A stretch of 32,936 nt of DNA from a candidate division TA06 bacterium B3_TA06 (lineage in GTDB: Bacteria; Hydrothermota; Tepidihabitantia; B3-TA06). The stretch spans positions 1 through 32,936 of the forward strand of contig NJBO01000021.1 in NCBI GenBank assembly GCA_005223075.1, given 5' to 3'. The notes under the pieces are model-generated. The model made no database searches. It was given only the letters and a program-made list of their open reading frames with translations, and was not told where the DNA came from. Positions within the stretch are counted from its first letter, which is position 1, and every line of letters begins with the position of its first letter. Positions 2,187 to 32,936 of this stretch are shown here, one piece after another. The position numbers and the translations under genes were made by a program.

Positions 2187-2197
2187 TTCACAATGAC

Positions 2198-2310
<113 letters not shown>

Positions 2311-2347
2311 AAAACTCATTGTCCAATCCCTCTCTCACAGAAACGGA

Positions 2348-2375
2348 ATTATACTTACCCATTACCCGCTGTCAA
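2348..2375 (-). promoter_or_regulatory. Perfect consensus promoter driving 5S rRNA
   Basis: Minus strand TTGACA (2375-2370), 16-bp spacer, TATAAT (2353-2348). The start site is predicted near 2341, about 30 nt before the 5S 5' end. It matches the 23S promoter box for box, including spacer length. Confidence 0.85.
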
Positions 2376-2387
2376 CCTTTGGCTTTT

Positions 2388-2547
2388 TGGAGTGCATAAA
2401 CCATGTTGATGCCGCAATGACCGTGTCATTGCACTCCATAGCAGTCTGTTCGCACAGGCTGGAGAGCCTGTGCCACATGCCTGGCTTAATTAATGAAGCG
2501 GGCCGAGCTGACGCAAGGCGGGCGTCCAAAGACGCCAACGTCGGCCC
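2388..2547. repeat. Cluster of three nested hairpins in the spacer upstream of 5S
   Basis: No gene is supported between 2376 and 2606. The stretch holds three inverted repeats. At 2388-2438, TGGAGTGCA/TGCACTCCA encloses an inner CAATGAC/GTCATTG stem. At 2452-2473 there is GCACAGGCT/AGCCTGTGC with loop GGAG. At 2500-2547, GGGCCGA/TCGGCCC encloses GGCGTC/GACGCC. None has a T-run on either strand typical of a terminator. They may be palindromic repeat elements or transcript-end structures of the upstream gene. Confidence 0.6.
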
Positions 2548-2606
2548 CTACGAACTGTTCGCGGGTACTCATGTCTGTTCTATTCGTCAACTTGACAAAG
2601 TGAGAG

Positions 2607-3827
2607 TTATTCTTTTTCTGATTTGTTTACTGACGATGATTGGGGCTCGGGCCAGTACCGGCCAACGTTTTCCCTGAACTCCTTGCCGGTGATGACCATC
2701 TCTTCCTCGATATCCAGCCCGCTGAGCCGTGACAGGATTGCGATCGCGGTATCAGAGCTCTTGTTTTCTGCGGTTCGGCATTCTTCAAGGAACCGGGGGA
2801 TGAGCTCCGGATTTCCGGACTTTTCCACCACCTTGGCCCAGAAGTAGGGAGCGAGAAGATAACCGAAGACATCAACCGACCTTCCACCCCTGAGATTAAT
2901 AATCTGAGCTTCCTTCCAGGTCCTGAGATCGTAAGTCTTTTTTGGATCATACCTTGGATAGTCATCCCGGTGCAGACGGGAATAGCCTTCTGGATAATAA
3001 CGCTTTTCAATCTCGAAAGCGGCGTAGTTGGCCAACCCGTCTCCAATCCAGCGGCCATCAACGTTGTAAATACTACCAAGAGAACTCTCCACCCATTCAT
3101 GTGGAATGGTTCCGAAGACGTATGAACTGTCAATCTCAGGGGTGGTCCACCACCCTCCGCCTATATGAAGTTCAAAAGTTGCCGTATCCTGTTTCAAGAC
3201 CACCTTAACTGGTTTCAATTCCATATCGAGTTCACTTTCTATAACCTTTCTGCCTTTCAGGACCGCATCCAGAACCTGGCCTGCTTGTTTGTTGAATTCA
3301 CTCGGATAAAGAACCCGAATTCCATCTTCTTCCAACTCAGGCATACCGTAAGATAAATACAAAGGTGCATTCCTCGCTGCTATGAAAAGTTTGAAAAAGA
3401 CTGTGAGGGAACCGATTAGACCCAAATTTGTTGATTCCGAACCGGCTGACCCAGTCAAAGGGAATTCTCCCTTGACTGGCTGGCAGGAATATACCTTAAA
3501 ACCTGTTATTCTTCGTGCCTTCCTCGGGATCCAAAACACAACTTCACCGTTTTTATCGGATGTCTTTTCGAACCTCCCTTTCTTTGTCTCAACCACGCAT
3601 AAAACACCCGAAGCTGGTTTCCACAGGGAATCGTGGAAGGCAAAGAAGATAGGCAGGCTGTCTGCCCTGGTAATCTGAGACATAAAAAAGAGCTCGTCCC
3701 TTGCGTACTCGGTGAGGTCAAGGGTGTCGGTGTAGGCTTTGGTTTCCTGAGCTATTACAGCGCTGAAGGTTAATGCCAAAAGGATTGACGTTCCCCAAAT
3801 CGATCCTGGCGTCCATCTCTTATGCAT
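2607..3827 (-). CDS. Secreted gluzincin-like (peptidase MA-type) protein with altered zinc motif, lying between 23S and 5S
   Basis: 406 residues. The start ATG at 3827 follows AAGGAGGTAGGA. The N-terminal hydrophobic stretch (SILLALTFSAVIAQ) is a signal peptide. Residues about 50-115 look like an Ig/CarboxypepD-reg-like beta domain. The C-terminal half carries a metallopeptidase-like signature IPHEWVESS then WIGDGLANYAAF. In MA-clan enzymes the pattern is HExxH followed by an E (often WxxEGLA). Here the second His is Glu247 (after H243, E244) and the downstream Glu is Asp263. Either an all-carboxylate variant site or an inactive relative is possible. It shares the rRNA orientation but is isolated from 23S by a terminator, and no consensus promoter of the local type is visible just upstream. 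Confidence 0.6.
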   Translation of the reverse strand: MHKRWTPGSIWGTSILLALTFSAVIAQETKAYTDTLDLTEYARDELFFMSQITRADSLPIFFAFHDSLWKPASGVLCVVETKKGRFEKTSDKNGEVVFWIPRKARRITGFKVYSCQPVKGEFPLTGSAGSESTNLGLIGSLTVFFKLFIAARNAPLYLSYGMPELEEDGIRVLYPSEFNKQAGQVLDAVLKGRKVIESELDMELKPVKVVLKQDTATFELHIGGGWWTTPEIDSSYVFGTIPHEWVESSLGSIYNVDGRWIGDGLANYAAFEIEKRYYPEGYSRLHRDDYPRYDPKKTYDLRTWKEAQIINLRGGRSVDVFGYLLAPYFWAKVVEKSGNPELIPRFLEECRTAENKSSDTAIAILSRLSGLDIEEEMVITGKEFRENVGRYWPEPQSSSVNKSEKE

Positions 3828-3887
3828 TCCTACCTCCTTGATTCACTTATTAAGACGAAGCTTTTATTAGAAAGTTTCTTGCCTGGA

Positions 3888-3919
3888 GAAAAAATACCCC
3901 TGACCGAAGCCAAGGGTAT
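3888..3919 (-). terminator. Intrinsic terminator of the 23S transcript
   Basis: On the minus strand an 11-bp stem (ATACCCTTGGC with GTCAGGGGTAT, two G-T pairs) closed by a TTCG tetraloop lies at 3919-3894. It is followed by TTTTTT (3894-3889). A second hairpin (3967-3937, CCCCAAACGG/CCGTTCGGGG, one mismatch) lies between it and the 23S 3' end. Confidence 0.85.
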
Positions 3920-3993
3920 ATAAAACTCTACGAGGTCCCCGAACGGATGCAAAGCAGCCGTTTGGGGTACAAAGGTAGGGAGTGCATTAAGAG

Positions 3994-7013
<3,020 letters not shown>

Positions 7014-31185: not shown

Positions 31186-31677
31186 ATGAAAGCTGAAACA
31201 CATTATTCCTTACAAGACCTCTTCGGGATAGCCATAAAGGCAGAGATAGAGGCCCAGGAGATATACACAGAGATCAGCACGTACACCAGGAACTTTGTGC
31301 TCAAGGAAAAGATGCGGTTCATGGCCAGTGAAGAAGAGAAACACGAAAGCATCCTGAGAGGCCTGTTCAAGCAGAAGTTCGCAGGGGCTGAACCTGTGAT
31401 TCCCCAACAGACGGTAGCACCGGTGCCCGGATGGAAGCCGGACGAGGGCGGTAATGTAAGTGAGGCCCTTAAGTCTGCAATGCAGACCGAGGAGGACGCA
31501 AAGGCGTTTTATGAAGCCATGGCTGAAAGGATTGCCGAACCGAAGGCTCAATCCATGCTTAAGTACATGGCCGCGATGGAGCAAACCCATTACCACCTGC
31601 TTGAGACTGAATACAACGCCGCGATGGAGATTGAGGACTACGACCGTTTCGACCCGGCCGTTCACTGGGGCGCGTAG
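31186..31677 (+). CDS. Ferritin-like diiron protein (rubrerythrin-type, COG1633-like)
   Basis: 163 residues, two helical pairs. The first has AIKAEIEAQEIYTEI and EEEKHESIL (ExxH). The second has AMQTEEDAKAFYEAM and EQTHYHLLETE (ExxH). Together they supply the E...ExxH plus E...ExxH ligands of a ferritin-like diiron centre. A Pro/Val-rich linker (about 68-85) separates the halves. There is no C-terminal rubredoxin domain. It probably reduces peroxide or handles iron or oxygen in an anaerobe. The electron donor is not evident. Single gene, with its own promoter and a TAGGAG ribosome site. Confidence 0.8.
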   Translation: MKAETHYSLQDLFGIAIKAEIEAQEIYTEISTYTRNFVLKEKMRFMASEEEKHESILRGLFKQKFAGAEPVIPQQTVAPVPGWKPDEGGNVSEALKSAMQTEEDAKAFYEAMAERIAEPKAQSMLKYMAAMEQTHYHLLETEYNAAMEIEDYDRFDPAVHWGA

Positions 31678-31800
31678 GAAGAATCTAAACCATTCAGATC
31701 GAATAATTAAGGCTGGCCGATAGGCCGCCTTCTTATTCCCTCCCCCTATCGATACACCCCATGTATCCGGATAGATGTAATGCCACGCCTTGTAGATATA

Positions 31801-31887
31801 ATGTTCGGGGTCCCCGCAGCGTTGCGAAGCAACGATGTGGGGTGTATGTTCGGGGTCCCCAACAAAACACGCAGTGTTTTGTTGGGG
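31801..31887. repeat. Paired hairpin repeats with a 15-bp direct repeat
   Basis: An exact 15-bp direct repeat (ATGTTCGGGGTCCCC) occurs at 31801-31815 and 31846-31860. Each copy leads into a hairpin: 31812-31842 (CCCCGCA/TGTGGGG around CGTTGC-GAA-GCAACG) and 31857-31887 (14-bp perfect stem CCCCAACAAAACAC, loop GCA). The first hairpin is a near copy of the one at 15172-15202. No gene is seen from 31678 to 31899. Confidence 0.65.
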
Positions 31888-31899
31888 TAAAAGGTTACC

Positions 31900-31927
31900 T
31901 TGACGCGGGCAAAACACGTCCTATAAT
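31900..31927 (+). promoter_or_regulatory. Near-consensus promoter of a candidate small RNA
   Basis: TTGACG (31900-31905), 16-bp spacer, TATAAT (31922-31927), followed by no ORF but by an intrinsic terminator about 40 bp later. Confidence 0.7.
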
Positions 31928-31933
31928 CAAGAT

Positions 31934-31997
31934 AACTACCCTCCCCTAACCATCAACCCCTCCCGCGAGCGGGACATCGCGTCCCGCTCGCTTTTAT
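31934..31997 (+). ncRNA. Candidate C-rich small RNA
   Basis: A strong promoter and a perfect 11-bp terminator hairpin bound a stretch of about 64 nt with no start codon. The 5' half is single-stranded-looking and C-rich (ACCCTCCCCTAACCATCAA, then CCCCTCCC). It can pair with AGGGGAGGG-type Shine-Dalgarno sequences, as C-rich regulatory RNAs in Firmicutes do with their UCCC motifs. It matches no family I recognise. Expression and targets are inference. Confidence 0.55.
31965..31997 (+). terminator. Intrinsic terminator of the candidate small RNA
   Basis: Stem GCGAGCGGGAC (31965-31975) with GTCCCGCTCGC (31981-31991), loop ATCGC, followed by TTTTATAT. Confidence 0.85.
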
Positions 31998-31999
31998 AT

Positions 32000-32030
32000 C
32001 CCATCAAAATCACGAAGTGATTTTGATGGG
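32000..32030. repeat. Long perfect hairpin between the small RNA and hypA
   Basis: A 14-bp perfect stem CCCATCAAAATCAC/GTGATTTTGATGGG with loop GAA. It lies 13 bp beyond the hypA stop codon on the minus strand, so it may mark the hyp transcript end, but no T-run follows on that strand (GATATAAAAG). It shares the short GAA loop with the hairpins at 15172 and 31812. Confidence 0.6.
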
Positions 32031-32043
32031 GGCCCAGAATTAA

Positions 32044-32445
32044 CTAGCCTGGGGACTCCTCGAGATCGCTTTGCTGAAGGATTTCTATAGAAGAAACGAT
32101 GCAATCCCTGCCCTCCAGAATCTCAAGCGAACCCCGCTCGCACTTCGGGCAGGCAAAAACCGGCAAGGCTTGGTGAAACAAAGGGTCCTCCTTGACCTGA
32201 AGCGGTCCCTCGTATCCGCATTTGCCGCACCGCACCCTGGCCGGAACCATCTTGTGGCTGATCTCCGCGGCTTCCGCTTCGGTGCCTTTAAAAAGCTCGG
32301 CAAGCCAGAAGATCACCTGTTCGGGGTTAAGAAAGGTAAGTTGACCTATTTCGATATTTATATGGGCAACCTTGACCGCCTCCTCCCTTTTGGCAGTGCG
32401 CAAAACAGCGCGGGCTATCTGCTGAGCCACCGACATCTCGTGCAT
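32044..32445 (-). CDS. hypA: Hydrogenase maturation nickel metallochaperone HypA
   Basis: 133 residues. It starts with MHEMSVAQ, whose His2 with Glu3 is the nickel-binding N-terminus of HypA. The zinc-binding loop has two CxxC pairs, Cys73/Cys76 (CGKCGY) and Cys99/Cys102 (CPKC). It delivers nickel with HypB to [NiFe]-hydrogenase large subunits. It follows hypB by 5 bp on the same strand and is probably co-transcribed. The hydrogenase structural genes are not in the window. The C-terminal tail (QSDLEESPG) is a short acidic extension. Confidence 0.93.
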   Translation of the reverse strand: MHEMSVAQQIARAVLRTAKREEAVKVAHINIEIGQLTFLNPEQVIFWLAELFKGTEAEAAEISHKMVPARVRCGKCGYEGPLQVKEDPLFHQALPVFACPKCERGSLEILEGRDCIVSSIEILQQSDLEESPG

Positions 32446-32450
32446 GAATC

Positions 32451-32936
32451 CTAAAGCTCCAAAGCCCCTATCAGCTCCTCGATTCCTTCACCATCACGGG
32501 CGGTCATCACCACCACCCTGGTTTCGGGATTGATGCCATGGATGTCGTTGGTAAGATCCTCGATGGAAACCTCCATGGAATCAGCCAGATCTTTTTTGTT
32601 AATTACAGCAACGTGGGCTTGGCCGAAGATGTAGGGATGCTTTTTGACCATGTAAGGCCCTTCGGTCACGGAAACCACAACCACCCGCTTGTCGGTGCCG
32701 AGTGGGAAATCCGCAGGGCAAACAAGGTTACCCACGTTCTCTATAAACAAGAGATTGGTATCGGCAGGTATATCCTCGATAGCGTGGGAGATAAGGTGCG
32801 CGTCAAGATGGCACTCCTTGCCGGTGTTGATCTGGAAGGTTTGAACGCCGTGCGCGCCGATACGATCCGCATCAATGGTGGTGGTCAGGTCACCTGCAAG
32901 GACCGCGATGCGGTACTGGTTTTTGAGGCGCTCGAC
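32451..32936 (-). CDS. hypB: Hydrogenase maturation GTPase HypB (5' part cut by the window edge)
   Basis: The frame is open to the last base of the window (162 residues visible). The N-terminal metal-binding part and the P-loop are missing only because the window ends. Visible family motifs: YRIAVLAGDLTTTIDADRI, QINTGKECHLDAHL (Cys and His of the nucleotide-dependent metal site), LLFIENVGNLVCPADF, VVSVTEGPYMVKKHPYIF and the guanine-specificity motif INKKDLAD. HypB couples GTP hydrolysis to nickel insertion together with HypA, whose gene follows 5 bp downstream. Confidence 0.95.
   Translation of the reverse strand, partial: VERLKNQYRIAVLAGDLTTTIDADRIGAHGVQTFQINTGKECHLDAHLISHAIEDIPADTNLLFIENVGNLVCPADFPLGTDKRVVVVSVTEGPYMVKKHPYIFGQAHVAVINKKDLADSMEVSIEDLTNDIHGINPETRVVVMTARDGEGIEELIGALEL

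Follow-up and report, generated by a model that had tools for sequence, protein, structure and literature searches.

A very probable small-RNA gene with a C-rich arm, conserved beside hypA in a family of Candidatus Stahlbacteria/WOR-3

We describe a short locus that, judging from its sequence and its conservation, is very probably a stand-alone, conserved small-RNA gene. The window, by which we mean the whole stretch of 32,936 nt that was analysed, is contig 21 of a 2.41 Mb draft genome (G000). The family sample comprised eight draft genomes (G000 to G007) from three genera of Ca. Stahlbacteria/WOR-3, the relatives' genomes having been deposited as Candidatus Stahlbacteria or candidate division WOR-3. 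A regulatory RNA of 60-odd nt is very probable because the promoter, the C-rich middle and the hairpin are kept in all eight genomes while the surrounding DNA has changed. The initial annotation had described TTGACG-N16-TATAAT followed by a C-rich segment and a perfect 11-bp hairpin, with no ORF between, as a candidate regulatory RNA; its coordinates and description are correct, and the proposal is strongly supported by conservation in 8/8 genomes against diverged flanks. The features of the locus and its neighbourhood are as follows.

31186..31677, plus strand: rubrerythrin-like gene upstream (context; absent from this position in genus g3)
31900..31905, plus strand: -35 hexamer TTGACG (TTGAC present in all 8 family genomes)
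31922..31927, plus strand: -10 hexamer TATAAT after a 16-nt spacer (unchanged in 8/8)
31934..31938, plus strand: predicted transcription start at about 31934, placed from the position of the -10 hexamer, and 5' leader
31939..31946, plus strand: C-block 1, CCCTCCCC (altered in genus g3)
31947..31956, plus strand: linker, TAACCATCAA (ACCATCAA invariant in 8/8)
31957..31964, plus strand: C-block 2, CCCCTCCC (like the linker, open in each of the 8 predicted folds)
31965..31991, plus strand: terminator hairpin, perfect 11-bp stem and 5-nt loop (lower 8-9 bp invariant, top variable)
31992..31999, plus strand: terminator tail, TTTTATAT
32044..32445, minus strand: hypA, convergent neighbour (Pfam; kept in 7/8, the contig ending in the eighth)
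32451..32936, minus strand: hypB (Pfam; context)

The whole C-rich arm, CCCTCCCCTAACCATCAACCCCTCCC, spans 31939-31964. A single ORF reaches into the promoter (31210-31917, minus strand), and it is mostly the reverse of the rubrerythrin gene. In the predicted 64-nt RNA the terminator alone is paired, with a folding energy of -24.5 kcal/mol as against -8.7 kcal/mol for shuffled sequences (z = -7.7; 0/200 shuffles). Dispersed hairpin repeats with a GGGGTCCCC frame and variable arms lie on either side of the element (window 31801-31887 and 32000-32030); the genome holds about 30 matches to them, and in relatives the arms at this position are different ones.

Several scans addressed how far this arrangement exceeds chance. 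The combination CCCTCCCC-N2-14-CCCCTCCC had one occurrence, and none in 100 shuffles. A promoter (at least 10/12 positions) running into a strong terminator within 220 nt was found at three sites in 300 kb of the genome plus the window, and at none when the 300 kb were shuffled five times, which shows the arrangement to be both rare and real. Exact TTGACN-N16-TATAAT sequences number 116 in the genome and 0 in the reversed control, and the 16-nt spacer is the one that the genome prefers (47/71 near-consensus sites). Nearly all of about 100 promoter sites that we inspected precede either an ORF with a Shine-Dalgarno (SD) sequence or a tRNA. The element has what marks a stand-alone small-RNA gene, namely its own promoter, an intrinsic terminator, no ORF and conservation as a unit. 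Nothing at the site reached the curated threshold in a search of Rfam 15 with gathering and loose thresholds.

A 111-nt query matches every other family genome, four in the same genus and three in the other two genera, with E-values in these seven relatives from 1e-9 to 1e-46. With a covariance model, each of the eight family members gives a single strong match (80-98 bits), and the class's other 57 genomes give no convincing one. Weak model matches outside the family (25 bits or less) were rejected, as they have no correctly placed promoter and C-block, and many are C/G-rich repeats. An exact 18-mer scan of 84,980 species returned family members plus chance-like matches; those in Myxococcales, Solimonas, Bacteroidetes and a virus were set aside, having no promoter-block-hairpin order and a count close to chance expectation. 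A counterpart near hypA was sought in 30 genomes of the class's other families, and none was found; within the family, the position beside hypA is retained.

TTGAC-N17-TATAAT and the hairpin accompany the element in all eight family genomes, which bears out the promoter, C-rich segment and hairpin conservation on which the initial annotation had made its proposal depend. Four parts of the element show no change in the alignment of the 8/8 genomes: TTGAC, the -10 hexamer, the block ACCATCAACCCCTCCCGCGAGCGG and the 3' arm CCCGCTCGC. An A-U to G-C exchange is seen at the top of the hairpin in three genomes, and compensatory changes are confined to this top. Because 8 of the 11 pairs never vary, covariation statistics are weak on their own, and the argument rests on sequence invariance. 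The core is identical over 35/35 nt between G000 and G005. In the adjacent rubrerythrin gene, by contrast, identity at four-fold sites is 27% for G000 against G005 and 38% for G000 against G002, at or near saturation. Beyond the closest relatives the flanks of the element are unrelated and hold different hairpin repeats. Purifying selection is very strong on the promoter, the C-rich core and the terminator, which have been kept together as one unit. A coding explanation does not fit, since the loop and leader lengths differ by non-multiples of three.

It is extremely unlikely that the site is not a gene, whether as the place where the rubrerythrin mRNA ends or is terminated, or as a fossil of the dispersed C/G-rich hairpin repeats. 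Rubrerythrin does lie upstream in six genomes, there are hairpin repeats on both sides of the site, and C/G-rich repeats whose C-arms are similar occur elsewhere, but the element has its own near-consensus promoter in 8/8, is present in one strong copy per genome, and stays the same among relatives in which the flanking repeats differ. Moreover, G006 keeps the element behind a different upstream gene, so it is not the 3' UTR of rubrerythrin.

The other two sites from the 300-kb scan are further orphan RNAs of the window's genome, which share with the window RNA a consensus promoter that leads into a C/U-rich arm and then directly into a terminator.

G000, contig C1, 207060, plus strand: second orphan RNA, s2 (same design, 8/8 family genomes)
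G000, contig C1, 93958, plus strand: third orphan RNA, s3 (AACCTCCC plus terminator; G000 and G001 only)

The s2 RNA combines its consensus promoter with two CCUCC-containing blocks of anti-SD type, followed directly by the terminator, and carries CACCUCCU, which we take to be the anti-Shine-Dalgarno tail octamer of 16S rRNA. The stretch from TAGCCCTCCTCAGAAACACCTCCTGTACCGCCCCC to CCGGGGGCGGT, covering core and terminator stem, is unchanged save for the initial base and a C insertion in G002, and the promoter spacer and flanks diverge among the family genomes. In the window's genome s2 adjoins a convergent ferredoxin-like gene. While the architecture of s2 and the window RNA is the same, their sequences differ, and s2 fits the local SD consensus whereas the window RNA does not.

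This difference is seen in the target tests. The full scan covered 282 gene starts, about 14% of the genome, with pattern searches used elsewhere; starts were picked with a simple rule combining ORF and SD, whose preference for starts that carry an SD is the same for every RNA in the comparison. A ranking of start sites by duplex energy gave no SD bias for the window RNA, s2 or s3, and a seed test was therefore used instead. In this test, 6-mer matches in the start regions were found for s2 in 115 genes (29 for shuffled versions) and for s3 in 117 (33 shuffled), about fourfold better than their shuffled versions, and for the window RNA in 51 genes as against 52.3 for composition-shuffled versions. 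Control stretches outside the start region gave 28-51 matches for the real RNAs. From these counts we infer that s2 and s3 are directed at SD sequences and that the window RNA shows no such preference once its C content is allowed for. The SD-targeting role that had been proposed for the window RNA thus applies to its siblings (115 and 117 versus 29 and 33 genes) and is not specifically supported for the window RNA itself (51 versus 52.3), the target prediction against ribosome sites that the initial annotation had called for yielding seeds no better than shuffled ones over the 282 starts.

The usual SD of the genome is AAGGAGG, not GGGAGGG, which accounts for the lack of SD enrichment: GGAGG is present in 85/282 start regions, GGGAGG in 7/282 and GGGAGGG in 1/282. 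GGGAGGG-N1-12-ATG was not enriched over the reversed control in the window's own genome (93 versus 111). The complementarity to GGAGG that had been pointed out is real in so far as CCUCC is found in both C-blocks, but the extra conserved C's fit the rare GGGAGGG. A general anti-Shine-Dalgarno RNA, pairing with many genes at their common GGAGG sites, would agree with those CCUCC motifs, with the 85 GGAGG-bearing starts and with the behaviour of s2 and s3 in the seed test; given that the window RNA's seed matches equal the shuffled ones and its conserved C's do not suit AAGGAGG, we regard this role as unlikely.

The predicted folds of the eight homologues narrow down the part that would be available for pairing. 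The 5' leader between the -10 hexamer and the C-rich arm differs in length and sequence among relatives and pairs with C-block 1 in four of them; this block is closed in a 5' hairpin in G002, G004, G006 and G007, partly unpaired in G005 and fully unpaired in the other three. Linker and C-block 2 are open in all eight folds, and the universally exposed segment is therefore ACCAUCAACCCCUCCC. Its complement, GGGAGGGGUUGAUGGU, looks on direct reading like an SD at normal distance from an AUG.

No close match to GGGAGGGGUUGAUGGU (up to 3/16 mismatches) stood up at gene starts, and no conserved target of the window RNA was found in the 282 start regions and the pattern searches. A candidate leader on C42 was rejected, since it lies inside a longer ORF that has an SD of its own. 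The best leader match, 11 bp, belongs to a DUF559 gene, and DUF559 leaders were also rejected because the complementarity is not conserved (6-9 bp in readable relatives). In several family genomes DUF559 genes lie in C/G-rich hairpin repeats (CCCTCCCC/GGGGAGGG) just before their start codons. Pairing of the window RNA with 23S or 5S rRNA was no better than shuffled. At window 2196-7011 an ORF (2607-3827) stands between the 5S and the 23S rRNA gene, which amounts to a split rRNA operon; a 16S gene was not found anywhere in the window.

With no conserved mRNA target found, the RNA could instead mainly bind or sponge a protein that recognises C-rich RNA, rather than act on mRNAs. The long invariant block, which includes the lower terminator stem, and the repeated motif formed by the two C-blocks would suit such a partner, but the linker ACCAUCAA varies as little as the C-blocks do, a constancy that a simple poly-C binder would not call for, and we consider this role quite improbable. 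A further alternative is a DNA element: a G-quadruplex might fold from the template strand GGGAGGGGTTGATGGTTAGGGGAGGG, with an i-motif on the other strand, and stall polymerase between convergent genes. Four G-tracts are kept in all eight genomes and the site does lie between convergent genes; the loop letters, however, are invariant although quadruplex folding does not require this, and a near-consensus promoter and an aligned terminator are kept along with the block, which makes this element very unlikely.

We favour a narrow, leader-directed RNA over a general SD blocker, a protein binder and a quadruplex, because there is no SD enrichment and ACCAUCAACCCCUCCC is universally exposed. The window RNA is thus moderately likely to be a trans-acting small RNA that pairs through C-block 2 and the linker with a few G-rich leaders. 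A vegetative sigma-70-type promoter would produce an RNA of about 60-80 nt, whose 5' arm is C-rich and exposed and whose hairpin doubles as terminator; ACCAUCAACCCCUCCC would then bind G-rich stretches near the starts of a small set of mRNAs, and this pairing would block ribosome entry. Against this mechanism, the invariance of about 24 nt, including the lower terminator stem, exceeds what a 7-8-nt seed needs.

Other sites in the genome also resemble RNA genes or leaders. In the region of G000:C16:22394, on the minus strand, a possible RNA gene consists of a consensus promoter, some 105 nt containing CCCCTCCTTTGGAGG, and a terminator. An orphan promoter and terminator at G000:C2:142610, minus strand, would give an RNA of about 85 nt that has no C-rich arm. 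At G000:C16:22865, and also in G001, a CCCCTCC leader could pair with the AAGGAGG of its own gene, which may be a 5' UTR switch.

Our literature search found no paper that joins WOR-3 with small RNAs, and these may therefore be the first conserved small-RNA genes indicated for this uncultured group. Their exact sequences are now given and can be checked directly in metatranscriptomes.

C-rich single-stranded RNAs that block SD sequences are an established mechanism, as in LhrC, FsrA and RsaE with their UCCC motif (PMC4132741) and in alpha-r14/NfeR1 (PMC10746234). Like the Gram-positive LhrC, FsrA, RsaE and SprD, the window RNA is small and has repeated single-stranded C-rich motifs suited to G-rich sites before start codons, together with a terminator hairpin (PMC4132741). 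CUCCC lies in both blocks, both unpaired in the window RNA, which gives at least two UCCC motifs in unpaired regions. Unlike the LhrC-type RNAs, it shows no Rfam sequence similarity to them, comes from a different phylum and has, in three genomes, a linear arm with no 5' hairpin. With the alpha-r14 or cuckoo-type anti-SD sRNAs of alphaproteobacteria (NfeR1), it shares an ultraconserved, repeated C/U-rich motif of anti-SD type in an otherwise variable RNA, but those RNAs carry CCUCCUCCC in three hairpins (PMC10746234). The window RNA lacks both the motif and the three-hairpin structure, and is a member neither of alpha-r14 nor of any Rfam family. The csRNAs with a CiaR-controlled promoter are a streptococcal system. 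These Streptococcus csRNAs of the CiaR regulon are complementary to SD plus AUG (PMC4507080), a shape that GGGAGGGGUUGAUGGU has as well; they differ in being 87-151 nt long and CiaR-driven, and no mRNA with a matching site was found for the window RNA. Tentatively, the family may possess a class of its own of minimal RNAs of about 60 nt (promoter, two C-rich blocks, terminator), in which s2 would be a mimic of the 16S rRNA tail and the invariant 16-nt block of the window RNA would read one dedicated SD-plus-AUG site or a protein, a specificity not described for known C-rich RNAs. Together with s2, the window RNA suggests an independent origin of C-rich, ribosome-site-directed RNAs in another phylum.
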